A DNA stretch of 64,000 bases. Source: Allomuricauda sp. NBRC 101325. Its GTDB lineage: Bacteria > Bacteroidota > Bacteroidia > Flavobacteriales > Flavobacteriaceae. Each line of letters opens with the position of its first letter. Positions within the stretch are counted from its first letter, which is position 1. Position numbers and translations under genes: made by a program. The notes below the pieces were generated by a model that had not been told where the DNA came from, ran no database searches, and saw only the letters and a list, made by a program, of their open reading frames with translations. Of the stretch, positions 1 through 58,725 are shown piece after piece. The stretch spans positions 372,001 to 436,000 of the forward strand of contig NZ_BSQF01000002.1 in the NCBI RefSeq assembly GCF_030268205.1, given 5' to 3'.

Positions 1-25
1 AAAATACTTGCCCTTTACATAAAAG

Positions 26-60
26 AAAAGCTTCCAGTAATGGGAGCTTTTTTATTTTGT
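26..60. terminator. Bidirectional hairpin terminator
   Basis: A 10-bp stem (26-35 with 42-51, one G-T pair, 6-nt loop) is followed by a T-rich run on the + strand, and preceded by an A-rich run that gives a T-tail on the minus strand. It can end an unseen + strand gene left of the window and the minus-strand small gene whose stop codon is at 52-54. Confidence 0.75.
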
Positions 61-138
61 GGTGCGATTTACACTTACCAATAATAGACAAAAGTTGATC
101 GCGAGTAATAAAAGTAAAATGCTAAAAATTGAATTCAT
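52..138 (-). CDS. 28-aa membrane peptide, paralogue A
   Basis: A 28-codon reading frame starts at ATG 136-138 and stops TAA at 52-54. It encodes one hydrophobic segment (about residues 4-23) beginning MNSIFSILLLLLAIN and ending SVNRTTK. It aligns without gaps over all 28 residues to the peptide at 211-297: 13 positions are identical (including M1, N2, F5, N15, S22-V23-N24 and K28) and most others are conservative. A hairpin terminator with a minus-strand T-tail lies directly behind the stop. Two in-frame paralogues of exactly equal length, plus a terminator, argue strongly for a real gene. Function is unknown; the shape fits a single-pass inner-membrane small protein. I do not recognise the family. 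Confidence 0.7.
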   Translation of the reverse strand: MNSIFSILLLLLAINFCLLLVSVNRTTK

Positions 139-210
139 GGTTAGAGTTATTTATTACGTAACAATTGAACGATAAAAAACCCTACCTATTGTGCCGAAAA
201 AAATGTAAAC

Positions 211-297
211 CTATTTTTTTGAACCGTTTACGCTCCAAATCAAAAGCAAAGCGTTAACGATCAAAAGAAAGCTAAGTACTGTGAAAAAAGTGTTCAT
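211..297 (-). CDS. 28-aa membrane peptide, paralogue B
   Basis: A 28-codon frame runs from ATG 295-297 to TAG 211-213. It starts MNTFFTVLSFLLIVN and ends SVNGSKK, with one predicted transmembrane helix (about residues 4-21) and a short basic tail. It is the tandem paralogue of 52-138, 72 bp upstream on the same strand. The asparagine in mid-membrane (N15) and the S-V-N exit motif are kept in both copies, suggesting selected positions. The pair may be co-transcribed. No Shine-Dalgarno is seen, as expected in Bacteroidota. Function is unknown. Confidence 0.7.
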   Translation of the reverse strand: MNTFFTVLSFLLIVNALLLIWSVNGSKK

Positions 298-388
298 GTG
301 ATTTTTTGATTAATGGTTGTGGGGAACAGTGTTTGCTTATTAGATAGGAAAAGTCTGATAGGTTGCGTGGAAAATCAAGAAAAAATAA

Positions 389-411
389 AAGCCCGGGAAA
401 AACCCGGGCTT
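389..411 (-). terminator. Terminator of the cold-shock gene
   Basis: A perfect 9-bp GC-rich stem (389-397 with 403-411, loop of five A on the + strand) is followed on the minus strand by a T-rich tail (381-390). It sits 26 bp beyond the stop codon of the minus-strand cold-shock gene. Confidence 0.85.
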
Positions 412-436
412 CTTTATAAAAAAGTATACTGTTACC

Positions 437-631
437 TTAATCTATAACTTGTACATTAACGGCGTTCAATCCTTTTTTACCTTGTTGTAGTTCGAATTCT
501 ACAACATCACCTTCTCTTACTTCGTCGATTAAACCAGAAATGTGTACAAAGTGATCTTTGTTTGAACCATCTTCAGTGATGAATCCGTAACCTTTGGAAT
601 CGTTGAAGAATTTTACTGTTCCTTTACTCAT
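437..631 (-). CDS. Cold-shock domain protein (CspA family)
   Basis: A 64-aa single cold-shock domain starting MSKGTVKFFN. It carries the RNA-binding motifs KGYGFI (RNP1) and DHFVHI (RNP2). CspA-type proteins bind single-stranded RNA and DNA in the cytoplasm and act as RNA chaperones. The frame stays open to 712, but the family begins at the MSKG methionine (629-631), giving the usual 60-70 aa length. A TACCTTCG element at 661-668 (minus strand) is a plausible -7 promoter box. A strong hairpin terminator follows at 389-411, so it is probably monocistronic. Family certain; cold induction not shown. Confidence 0.95.
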   Translation of the reverse strand: MSKGTVKFFNDSKGYGFITEDGSNKDHFVHISGLIDEVREGDVVEFELQQGKKGLNAVNVQVID

Positions 632-718
632 AATTAAAATTGAAAAAATTAAATCTGCCGCGAAGGTACGTTTAATTTCATGATAATGAGATTTTAAACC
701 ATTTATTTTCAAAAATAA

Positions 719-1357
719 TTATGCTGTGGGGTCTGGGGTCAAACGCAAATATGGTTTTATCTCTTCAACACCCTTAGTAAATATGGTCTTGGCCTCTGCC
801 GTTGGAATAGAAGGACTTACCACAACCTTTTGTCCGTTTTCCCAATTCGCAGGTGTAGCAACCTTATGGTGTGCTGTCAACTGTAACGAATCGATAACAC
901 GAAGCAATTCATAAAAATTACGTCCTGTGGAGGCAGGATAGGTCAGCGTTAACTTGATCTTTTTATCAGGCCCGATAATGAACACCGAACGCACCGTAAG
1001 CGTATCGTTGGCATTGGGGTGGATCATATCATACAGGTCTGAAACCTTTCTTTCCACATCGGCAACGATAGGGAAGTTTACTTCGGTATGTTGGGTTTCG
1101 TTAATGTCCTTGATCCATTCTTTGTGCGATTCTGCACCATCCACACTCAAGGCCATCATTTTTACATTTCTTTTGGCGAACTCATCCTTGAACTTTGCCG
1201 CAGTACCCAATTCAGTGGTACAAACAGGCGTAAAATCAGCAGGGTGAGAGAACAAAATGCCCCATCCGTCGCCGAGGTATTCGTAAAAGTTAAGGGTTCC
1301 TTCAGAAGTTACCGCCGTAAAGTCTGGAGCGGTATCGCCTAATCTTAGCGTTGCCAT
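719..1357 (-). CDS. 1-Cys (Prx6-type) peroxiredoxin
   Basis: A 212-aa peroxiredoxin of the AhpC/TSA superfamily, reducing hydrogen peroxide and organic hydroperoxides in the cytoplasm. The active-site segment FSHPADFTPVCTTELG places the peroxidatic cysteine at C46, with the conserved T43 of the P-x-x-x-T/S-x-x-C motif. Length and the long C-terminal part (PANWENGQKVVVSPSI) match the Prx6 group rather than typical 2-Cys AhpC. It lies downstream of nothing obvious on its strand and is followed by the cold-shock gene 88 bp away. No OxyR-type operator was identified. Subfamily confidence is high; the in vivo reductant is unknown. Confidence 0.93.
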   Translation of the reverse strand: MATLRLGDTAPDFTAVTSEGTLNFYEYLGDGWGILFSHPADFTPVCTTELGTAAKFKDEFAKRNVKMMALSVDGAESHKEWIKDINETQHTEVNFPIVADVERKVSDLYDMIHPNANDTLTVRSVFIIGPDKKIKLTLTYPASTGRNFYELLRVIDSLQLTAHHKVATPANWENGQKVVVSPSIPTAEAKTIFTKGVEEIKPYLRLTPDPTA

Positions 1358-1512
1358 ATATTTTGATTTAAATTGATAATTTGGTTAATCCTATAAATTT
1401 AGGGGATTATTTCGACCTGTCGGTTTAAATGCGTTAAAACTGTATTAAACTTTTTTTGATGGATTTAAAGGTTTCGCGATAGATCACGACCAAAAGATTA
1501 ATACTTTTAAAT

Positions 1513-40068: not shown

Positions 40069-40902
40069 ATGAGTCCGAAAGAAATAGAACCACCGAAGAT
40101 TTCCGTTATCGTAAGTACCTATAATGCCGAAGAATGGCTAGAGAAAGTGCTTTGGGGCTTCAATTGTCAAATTTTCAAGGATTTTGAAGTGGTAATTGCC
40201 GATGATGGGTCTGGTCCAAAGACCAAGGCTTTATTGGATGAAATGTCCGAAAAGGTATTTTACGATATTGTTCATGTTTGGCAGGAAGATGATGGGTTTC
40301 AAAAGTCCAGGATTCTGAATAAGGCTGTTGAGGCCTGTAGTGCTGACTACATTATAATGACGGATGGGGATTGCATTCCCCGTGAAGATTTTGTTGAGGT
40401 GCATTACATTAATAAGGAGGAAGGTTATTTTATATCAGGAGGCTACTATATGTTGCCCATGAACATCTCCAAAATGATCACCAAGGAGGATATTGAACAG
40501 CAAAACTGTTTTCATATTCATTGGCTCAAAGAAAAAGGAATTCCCAAAACATTTAAGAACAATAAATTGACTGCTAGTGGGGTTGTTTCCAAATTCCTGA
40601 ACACCTTTACGCCCACAAATGCCAGTTGGAACGGACATAATTCTTCCGGTTGGAAAAAGGATATTTTAAATGTGAACGGTTTTGACGAACGGATGCAATA
40701 TGGTGGTCAGGACCGTGAATTGGGCGAGCGCCTGTTCAATTTCGGAATTAAATCCAAGCAATTGCGATACAGCGCCGTTTGCGTGCATTTAGATCATAAA
40801 AGAGGGTATAAAACTCCAGAATCCATTGCAAAAAACCAGGCTATTCGAAAAGAAACTAGGTCTCAAAAAGTAGTTTGGACCCACTACGGCATTACCAAAT
40901 AG
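40069..40902 (+). CDS. GT2 glycosyltransferase with galactosyltransferase-type C-terminus
   Basis: A 277-aa GT-A fold enzyme. N-terminal GT2 motifs: ISVIVSTYNAEEWLEKVL and VIADDGSGPKTKALLD, then the metal-binding DGDC. The C-terminal segment GFDERMQYGGQDRELGERLFNFGIK is the glycosyltransferase family 7 C-terminal (galactosyltransferase-like) motif. It converges with the next gene and the two coding regions overlap by 19 bp (40884-40902). Confidence 0.92.
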   Translation: MSPKEIEPPKISVIVSTYNAEEWLEKVLWGFNCQIFKDFEVVIADDGSGPKTKALLDEMSEKVFYDIVHVWQEDDGFQKSRILNKAVEACSADYIIMTDGDCIPREDFVEVHYINKEEGYFISGGYYMLPMNISKMITKEDIEQQNCFHIHWLKEKGIPKTFKNNKLTASGVVSKFLNTFTPTNASWNGHNSSGWKKDILNVNGFDERMQYGGQDRELGERLFNFGIKSKQLRYSAVCVHLDHKRGYKTPESIAKNQAIRKETRSQKVVWTHYGITK

Positions 40903-41687
40903 TAAGCCAGTTCGTTCTTTTTTTCCAGTCTTTTCAATTCTCTGAAACGCTCCAAAACACCCAATGCGTTCAGGTAACAAATGGTCAAGCCTTTTTTGCC
41001 ATCTAAAATCCCTAATCGGATAATGTAATGGTTGAAAAATTTCCAAAAGGGCTTAACCGTCATCAAAAGATAATTGAAATGCTTTTCTTTATAGAAATCT
41101 TCTTTGGCTTTTAAGCGACCATAGCAAAGCATTTTACTTTTATAATCCTCGTAGTTCTTATAGCAAAAGTGCAACAACTTTTCATTTAAAATTCCGGAGG
41201 TACCATCCACCTCAAGGGTTTCATGGACAATTTTCTTATCTGTAAACTGAGCCTTGCTTTTTCTGAAAAGCCTGTGGTTTTTATCCGTTTGCCAACCACT
41301 GTAATTTAGGGGTTGGTTTTGAAACATGAACTTTCTATAAAACCAATACGCCTCATGTGCATTTGGATTGTTGATGGTTGCGGTGATTTCTTTTTGAAGG
41401 CTATCTGTTACCACTTCATCGGCATCTAAAAACAATACCCAGTCATTGGTTGCTTGCTTTAGTGTAAATGACTTTTGAGCTGTAAAATTCTCGAAGGGAT
41501 TCTGAATCACTTTAACCTTGGGATGATCGAGGAGGTATTCATAAGTGCCATCGGTGCTATAGGAGTCCACAACGATTATTTCATCGGCAAATGAAATGGA
41601 TTCAATACACTTTTCAATGTAACCTATTTCGTTGTAGGTAATAATAAGTGCTGATAATTTTTGCTTTGGGGTGCTCAATTCAGCCAT
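40884..41687 (-). CDS. GT2 glycosyltransferase (WaaE/KdtX-like)
   Basis: A 267-aa GT2 enzyme similar to LPS-core beta-glucosyltransferases of the WaaE/KdtX group. Motifs: LSALIITYNEIGYIEKCIESI, DEIIVVDSYSTDGTYE, and LFLDADEVV. In other bacteria these add the first neutral sugar to LPS core heptose or Kdo. Its 3' end overlaps that of the + strand GT2 gene by 19 bp. Confidence 0.92.
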   Translation of the reverse strand: MAELSTPKQKLSALIITYNEIGYIEKCIESISFADEIIVVDSYSTDGTYEYLLDHPKVKVIQNPFENFTAQKSFTLKQATNDWVLFLDADEVVTDSLQKEITATINNPNAHEAYWFYRKFMFQNQPLNYSGWQTDKNHRLFRKSKAQFTDKKIVHETLEVDGTSGILNEKLLHFCYKNYEDYKSKMLCYGRLKAKEDFYKEKHFNYLLMTVKPFWKFFNHYIIRLGILDGKKGLTICYLNALGVLERFRELKRLEKKNELAYYLVMP

Positions 41688-41836: not shown

Positions 41837-41887
41837 ATCCAATAGATATAATTGGGAAAAATTGGTTGCGTGAAAAAAGTCGAGGAT

Positions 41888-57596: not shown

Positions 57597-58133
57597 GTGC
57601 TCCATATTGAGCTTGTAGAAAGGTGCAAGGTGAACGATCGCCAGGCACAGATGAAACTCTATCGACAGTATTGCGATGGTATGTTTTGTGTGGCCATGCG
57701 CTTTCTAAAAAATGCGGATGATGCGGAGGATGTGGTTCAGGAGTCCTTTATAAAGGCATTTCAGCGAATTGCCCAATTTAAAGGGGAGGTAACGTTCGGA
57801 GCTTGGTTAAAGCGAATTGTGGTCAACGGGAGCATTGATTTCTTGAAATCGAAACACCAACAAACGGTGGAACTGAACGAAAGTTACATGCATGTTGCGG
57901 AAACGGATGATTGGTCGGTGGAAGAGGGCATTTCGATTGAGCAGGTGAAGGAAGCGATTGAGGAGTTGCCACAGAAATATAAATATGTAGTGCAGTTGTT
58001 CTTGGTGGAGGGATATGATCATAGTGAAATCTCCCAAATCATGGGAATCACAGAAACAACATCGAGGACGAGATTGCTTAGAGGAAAAGCACAGTTGAAA
58101 GAAAAACTAAAAGATTTGGCTTATGGCACGTGA
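57597..58133 (+). CDS. ECF RNA polymerase sigma factor
   Basis: A 178-aa sigma-70 family ECF regulator. Region 2: YRQYCDGMFCVAMRFLKNADDAEDVVQESFIKAFQRI (DAEDVVQ, -10 recognition helix), region 4: IEELPQKYKYVVQLFLVEGYDHSEISQIMGITETTSRTRLLRGKAQLKE. The start is GTG 57597, which keeps the conserved HIELVERCK beginning. The next gene overlaps by 11 bp and encodes a one-helix membrane protein, the expected anti-sigma position. Confidence 0.94.
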   Translation: MLHIELVERCKVNDRQAQMKLYRQYCDGMFCVAMRFLKNADDAEDVVQESFIKAFQRIAQFKGEVTFGAWLKRIVVNGSIDFLKSKHQQTVELNESYMHVAETDDWSVEEGISIEQVKEAIEELPQKYKYVVQLFLVEGYDHSEISQIMGITETTSRTRLLRGKAQLKEKLKDLAYGT

Positions 58134-58725
58134 TCTTAGAGAAATATTTGAAAAGGAACGAGAGGAGAAAAAGTATCGCATGAAAGAAGGACATGCGGAT
58201 CGGTTTTTGTCCAAATTGGAGGAGGAATTACCTAATGATCCACCCAAGCGCAAAGTAATTTCACTTTGGATGCAGATTGCGGCTTCGGTTGTTGTCATCA
58301 TCGGACTCTCTTTCTTTTACTTCAATTCGAATTCAGATGTGGTCAATCCCGATGAAAATGTTACGGTCGTTGATCGTAATAATCAACCTTCGGATGTGCA
58401 GACCATTTCTTTGGGCGATTTATCCCCCGATCTAAGAAAAATCGAAGCATATTACACCACGAATATCAATCTGCAATTGTCCGATTTAGCAGCGGATCCA
58501 GAAAACAAGGAGCTGGTGGATGGATATATGGACCGTTTGGCCGAATTGAACAAAGAATACCAACGATTGAACCAAGAGTTGAACGAATTGGGCCCCAATG
58601 ATCAAACCATCAATGCCTTGATCATGAACCTTCAGCTAAGGTTACAATTGTTGGAAAAATTAAAATCAAAGTTGAATCAATTAAATACATCAAAAAATGA
58701 ACAGGAATCATCAGAAATTGTTTAG
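58123..58725 (+). CDS. Putative anti-sigma factor
   Basis: A 200-aa protein: an acidic/basic cytoplasmic region (1-47), one transmembrane helix (about 48-68, WMQIAASVVVIIGLSFFYF), and a periplasmic part with a long helix region rich in L, N and E (residues 100-195). It follows the ECF gene with 11-bp overlap, so it is probably the membrane anti-sigma factor. It lacks an obvious zinc-binding ZAS motif (no HxxxCxxC). The periplasmic helices could sense partners or stress. It overlaps the third gene by 29 bp. Confidence 0.8.
   Translation: MARDLREIFEKEREEKKYRMKEGHADRFLSKLEEELPNDPPKRKVISLWMQIAASVVVIIGLSFFYFNSNSDVVNPDENVTVVDRNNQPSDVQTISLGDLSPDLRKIEAYYTTNINLQLSDLAADPENKELVDGYMDRLAELNKEYQRLNQELNELGPNDQTINALIMNLQLRLQLLEKLKSKLNQLNTSKNEQESSEIV

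Follow-up and report, generated by a model that had tools for sequence, protein, structure and literature searches.

Two consecutive open reading frames of 28 codons, here named P1 and P2, lie on the minus strand near the start of the window (the 64,000-nucleotide stretch of DNA analysed, positions 372001-436000 of contig C2 in a 3.69 Mb genome), and the locus raises the question of whether such short frames encode proteins and, if so, what these proteins may do. The original prediction described a tandem pair of paralogous membrane peptides kept at equal length, possibly a small inner-membrane protein family or a type-I-toxin-like one. Both frames were found exactly as described, the sequence of P1 being MNTFFTVLSFLLIVNALLLIWSVNGSKK and that of P2 being MNSIFSILLLLLAINFCLLLVSVNRTTK, and a recount reproduced 13 identical residues out of 28 in a gap-free alignment. 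On the minus strand, a peroxiredoxin gene is followed by csp, a terminator, P1, P2, a stem, and then a convergent PPIase gene, which is a cyclophilin-FKBP fusion; the neighbouring genes were confirmed by Pfam (Table 1). The terminator predicted after P2 stood in part: a T-rich tail is indeed present on the minus strand, but the stem is common to the convergent PPIase gene, and the terminator scan scored its plus strand only.

Table 1. Features of the P1/P2 locus and the related long paralog; positions are those of the window unless a contig is named.
Feature	Position	Strand	Basis or context
P1, 28-aa mini-protein with one predicted membrane helix, first member of the pair	211..297	-	Frame, conservation, family profile E 2.3e-13
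P2, 28-aa paralog of P1	52..138	-	Frame, conservation, family profile E 6.5e-11
P1 element CGCAACC-N-ATCTA, putative ECF-sigma promoter	341..367	-	Site match; conserved in 54/55 P1 loci
P2 element GTAGGGT-N-TGTTA, putative FecI-type ECF-sigma promoter	159..185	-	Site match; 48/48 P2 loci
csp, cold-shock domain protein, upstream neighbour (context outside the system)	437..631	-	PF00313, E 4.4e-19
Terminator after csp, preceding the P1 element	387..413	-	Terminator scan; conserved hairpin in 27-row alignment
Stem after P2, common to the convergent PPIase gene	24..53	.	Plus strand scored in scan; hairpin in 27-row alignment
Long paralog, 59 aa, outside the window	C2:346638-346817		Also L083:6638-6817; distance to the pair 25 kb; clustered neighbours CrcB, P-II and AmtB

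Coding capacity was assessed from the pattern of substitutions. The pN/pS ratio was 0.17 for P1 (20 aligned rows) and 0.21 for P2 (18 rows), values that reflect purifying selection. Compared with the nearest relative, synonymous differences outnumber nonsynonymous ones, by 11 to 3 in P1 and by 7 to 6 in P2, with second codon positions unchanged in both frames; the frames thus show a third-position bias and selection on residues. These data demonstrate that P1 and P2 are real coding genes under purifying selection. Between the two copies in this genome, synonymous differences are saturated (17.2 of 18.2 sites) and P1/P2-type pairs were found in other genera too, indicating that the duplication is old. 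Equal length is not the conserved trait that it had been taken for, because 16 of the 18 aligned rows have a P2 of 27 aa, the length of 28 aa being confined to this genome and its closest relative.

The same frames are conserved among relatives. The order csp-P1-P2-PPIase is held by 19 of 23 congeners, and the remaining four (G003, G004, G006 and G014) gave shorter matches over the pair region. The named loci found with the peptides (n = 30) belong mostly to Allomuricauda, Flagellimonas or Muricauda, with one from Croceitalea, and the pair is present in 29 of them, the long paralog taking its place in L080. A profile (A4) was built from 57 helix segments, and its matches cover all of the subfamilies described below (A, B, B' and C). 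It was compared with a decoy obtained by reversing 29 of the same 57 rows: among 299 genomes from the family to which the window belongs, apparently Flavobacteriaceae, A4 matched 177 at E<=0.01 and the decoy 5. Together with the third-position bias of the congener frames, this bears out the statement that the pair is hard to explain by chance. No convincing member was seen outside that family among 196 order-level genomes searched with short and long profiles; the short profile gave 8 outside-family genomes at E<=0.05 (best 0.0143) and the long profile gave 17 (best E 0.0015), and these weak matches, being either partial or in an odd frame, were judged to be due to chance.

Searches of profile libraries returned no score above the curated cut-offs of Pfam and NCBIfam for P1, P2 or the long form, and nothing significant in PHROGs and PADLOC, which carry no curated cut-offs, or in a PDB sequence search with profile A3 alone; the sole library matches listed, both far from significance, were Pfam PsaX for P2 (E 9.4) and a PHROG for the long form (E 2.4). 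Titles and the beginnings of abstracts held no mention of the mini-protein family or of its two upstream elements. The family is of a known kind, the single-helix small membrane proteins; a conserved group of ~28 residues, detected in ~59% of the 299 sampled genomes, it is covered by none of the models in these libraries. What is unusual is the division of putative promoters between neighbouring paralogs.

The genome under study holds three family copies, with a fourth match at only E 6.15, and the wider family falls into four subfamilies. Subfamily A, of 26-36 aa, occupies the csp/PPIase locus with one or two copies per locus. Subfamily B comprises the long form (53-61 aa), found with genes for an aminotransferase (ilvE-like), PRA-PH (MazG-like), CrcB, P-II and AmtB, not all of which are present in each locus; "ilvE-like" and "MazG-like" are labels of our own, the Pfam assignments being Aminotran_4 and PRA-PH. 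The long form ends in YKKA(V/I) in 11 of 13 aligned sequences, in YKEAV in this genome, and in YSIS in one. Subfamily B', known from seven loci, is 28 aa long and ends in SVNK(K/R)T(D/E)P or similar; five of the seven have the MazG-like gene nearby, and in three of these the aminotransferase gene is close as well. Subfamily C adjoins a uracil-DNA glycosylase gene (PF03167), ends in most cases in LAPTGS or a close variant, and is likely akin to the rest of the family, although more weakly than the other subfamilies. In one set of 30 returned loci, the PPIase gene was present in 22, csp and peroxiredoxin alone in 1, the surroundings of subfamily B in 6, and none of the tested neighbours in 1. 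Across the paralogs, no common neighbour gene was found that would name a partner.

Conservation along the helix was examined in A4. All 57 rows have M1, L11 and N15; F4 and S22 each occur in 56 of them, L8 in 54, and L18 and L19 in 52 each. The positions F4-L8-L11-N15-L18-S22 follow a 4-3-4-3-4 heptad pattern, and the periodicity of conservation is maximal at 100 degrees per residue, a signal matched in strength by 0 of 20,000 column permutations. AlphaFold was run on a monomer of the long form, since P1 and P2 are under the 30-aa minimum of the tool; it returned one helix over residues 2-30, with a pLDDT of 94 over residues 1-20 and a mean of 67.7, the tail being of low confidence. One helix per short protein is therefore a matter of structure prediction for the long form and of sequence and the common profile for P1 and P2. 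Taken together, the coding signature, the conservation and the predicted helix support the originally predicted small inner-membrane protein family, with membrane location deduced rather than observed. Under the positive-inside rule, the positive charge at one end suggests an N-out/C-in orientation, and the tail of the long form, mostly ending in YKKA(V/I), is predicted to be cytoplasmic. A buried Asn promotes helix association in membranes, and the conserved face would be suited to act as a membrane zipper with N15 in its core. With its invariant Asn and heptad face, such a short helix offers a natural example, of minimal size, of how membrane helices may recognise one another.

The regions upstream of the two genes were examined in a 27-row alignment, in which rows L005 and L069 represent one and the same genome. 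The conserved non-coding blocks are the csp terminator, the P1 and P2 elements, and the last hairpin; the block before P1 reads ACGCAACC...ATCTA with a CCCCA/AACC/ATTAA leader, and that before P2 reads GTAGGGT...TTGTT. The P1 element, as GCAAC-N17/18-TCT(A/T), occurs in 54 of 55 P1 loci, with a spacing of 17 in 37 and 18 in 17. The loose pattern GCAAC-N14-19-TCT(A/T) recovered 33 of 34 genus loci and 21 of 21 distant loci; the strict pattern CGCAACC-N14-17-ATCTA recovered 33 genus loci and 12 distant ones, so that 9 of the distant loci were recovered by the loose pattern only, and L020 is a P1 locus without the element. The P2 pattern GTAGGG-N10-20-TGTT was present in 34 of 34 genus and 14 of 14 distant P2 loci, with a spacing of 16 in 47 of 48. 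It should be noted that some of the 34 genus loci are closely related to one another (L054/L077, L058/L064 and L076/L078 share most or many 40-mers). The two elements exclude one another, a P1-type element being found in 0 of 48 P2 loci and a P2-type element in 0 of 55 P1 loci; this count follows the transfer of two single-copy loci (L028 and L049) from the P1 list to the P2 list, made after their elements were seen, because they are without a P1 element and carry a P2 element. Without these two loci the P2 count is 46 of 46, and had both stayed the P1 count would be 54 of 57. For the long form, 12 of 13 loci have a TAnnTTTG box instead, which corresponds to the sigmaA consensus reported for flavobacteria in the available part of PMC9723704. 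The terminator scan found none between P1 and P2, and thus P1 transcription may run into P2.

Genome-wide, the strict P1 pattern has 4 sites in this genome versus 2 in the backwards control, and the P2 pattern has 2 versus 2. Among the strict P1 sites are that of P1 itself and one before an ECF sigma operon linked to recA, with two others elsewhere. In the recA-linked operon, the P1-type site lies just after recA and is followed by a lipoprotein-like frame, an ECF sigma gene with Sigma70_r2 and r4_2 domains, and a putative anti-sigma frame for which no convincing Pfam match was obtained. The loose P1 element recurs ~500 bases upstream of this sigma gene, shortly before an ATG, in 22 of 22 genus genomes, a count of uncut copies that includes the present genome (the copy in G007 is incomplete, and in G014 the sigma matches were all weaker, with no ortholog seen). 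It stands in sense orientation at about 976-995 in L188-L209, and the L193 copy ends in TCTT. The recA-linked operon looks autoregulated, as judged from this arrangement. Of the two P2-type sites, one is that of P2 itself. The other falls in the space that separates an ECF sigma gene from its FecR gene (PF04773), ending 23 nt short of the latter; it is kept with one change in G008, the one other genome compared, and was seen in these two close genomes only. These observations led us to infer that the upstream elements are candidate ECF-sigma promoters, with P1 probably read by the recA-linked ECF sigma and P2 by a FecI/FecR-type sigma. If so, they could serve as handles on two Bacteroidota ECF sigma factors, one of them beside recA.

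Three further sites in the window and genome were recorded. A P1-type site at window positions 41843-41870 (-) precedes a gene for a family 2 glycosyltransferase (40884-41687, -) by ~155 bases. The fourth strict P1 site is on the opposite strand inside another frame and is probably due to chance. A further ECF sigma gene is found at window positions 57597-58725 (+) with a membrane-protein-like neighbour, maybe its anti-sigma factor; this neighbour has no Pfam match, and neither a P1-type nor a P2-type element was found in the vicinity of the sigma gene.

The reading that we favour, and hold to be somewhat better than an even bet, is that P1 and P2 are two inner-membrane regulators, each under a different ECF sigma factor and acting via one helix face. 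Two distinct ECF promoters would allow two envelope signals to raise one variant each: either signal would free its own sigma factor, one increasing P1 and the other P2. The products would then enter the inner membrane as a single helix, N-out/C-in, and the heptad face with its buried Asn would pack against itself, against paralogs, or against one common larger membrane protein, and this packing could adjust the activity or assembly of the putative larger partner. The apparently separate stress-type switches suggest that P1 and P2 adjust something in the membrane under different stresses.

Several other explanations were weighed against this one. The type-I-toxin proposal holds that P1 and P2 are type I toxins or pore-forming stress peptides whose strong expression would depolarise the membrane and slow growth. 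Small size and hydrophobicity agree with it, and so does one Rfam family of plasmid antisense RNAs, at a score below its threshold: of 14 matches at E<=1 in window positions 1-1500, all under their gathering scores, RF00489 (plasmid ctRNA) fell on the terminator hairpin on the plus strand (E 1.8e-5, 34.3 bits versus a gathering score of 50), a match that we read as the hairpin alone. However, the loci are fixed housekeeping loci, and PADLOC gave no match. An antisense RNA over the pair had been suggested as worth seeking, but among the 27 aligned rows no antisense promoter-like site of three kinds was conserved (best column 1/27), a scan that would overlook promoters of a different type. Furthermore, 600 stretches in viral contigs fit the pattern and 0 were confirmed as family members, and no relative was confirmed in phages and plasmids searched with P1. 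The toxin reading is thus not supported and is considered very improbable. Even harder to credit is the idea that the frames are leader peptides with a regulatory role, or open frames that arose by chance and have no protein function. Short frames are common here (44 of at least 20 aa in 3 kb), but chance is refuted by the selection on residues and the decoy comparison, and leader peptides were rejected because no sense gene lies after P2, the next gene being convergent.

Single-helix subunits stabilise respiratory enzymes or transporters, and P1 and P2 might likewise be small fixed structural subunits of one membrane complex, with the expression pattern secondary. The strong conservation, the single helix face and the fixed loci speak for this, but genes for a membrane complex are absent beside the pair, the two genes have separate stress-type upstream elements, and the csp/PPIase locus varies between one and two copies; we regard the structural role as unlikely, though worth keeping in view. 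Of a similarly low order of probability is a variant in which the family supplies interchangeable zipper subunits that would compete for, or co-assemble in, one complex, its composition reporting the active envelope or nutrient signal; here the recA-linked ECF sigma would serve P1, the FecI-type ECF sigma P2, and the housekeeping sigma the long form. Doubt may also fall on the promoters themselves, since the elements could be binding sites of ordinary regulators, with the products still membrane mini-proteins. The genome-wide counts near those of the control would fit this, and the elements are unlike the ECF-type motif as described in the available part of PMC9723704; yet they are two-part elements with a near-fixed spacing of 16 to 18, and they occur upstream of the ECF-sigma operon in all 22 genomes and of the FecR gene, for which reason ordinary regulators are deemed rather improbable.

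The preferred reading, of two membrane regulators under different ECF sigma factors, has parallels in known systems. MgrB, AcrZ and MgtS are, like P1 and P2, short proteins with one helix, and are considered to act by packing against a larger membrane protein, as P1 and P2 may do; however, the likeness is one of build, MgrB has 47 aa versus the 28 of P1 and P2, and the present family differs from the three in having several paralogs with one common face. Phospholamban/regulin zippers have a membrane helix with a heptad face, and designed membrane zippers that contain Asn place this polar residue in the core, as N15 may be placed here; both are likenesses of pattern only, the former being eukaryotic and the latter synthetic, whereas P1 and P2 are bacterial. 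For the long paralog alone, and by its neighbourhood of P-II and AmtB genes alone, an analogy may be drawn with sP36 of Methanosarcina mazei, a small protein of 61 aa linked to AmtB and to a P-II protein, which is proposed in the accessible text of PMC10714827 to inhibit AmtB1 by mediating the AmtB1-GlnK1 interaction. sP36 is archaeal and moves between cytoplasm and membrane, whereas the 59-aa long paralog is bacterial with a predicted membrane helix. As for the promoters, the accessible portion of PMC9723704 describes SM6, an ECF-type motif of Flavobacterium psychrophilum; it resembles the putative P1 and P2 promoters in being assigned to an alternative sigma factor in a related bacterium, but has a CGT box in its -10 region, compared with ATCTA for P1 and TGTTA for P2.

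Two minor observations concern the other subfamilies. A 62-aa predicted membrane frame at L083:6933-7121 (-), with sub-cut-off family matches only, separates the long paralog from the MazG-like gene. Members of subfamily C overlap the glycosylase gene tail to tail at L098:1384-1587, L100:1399-1584 and L103:1474-1650, as well as in L162-L168 and L170.
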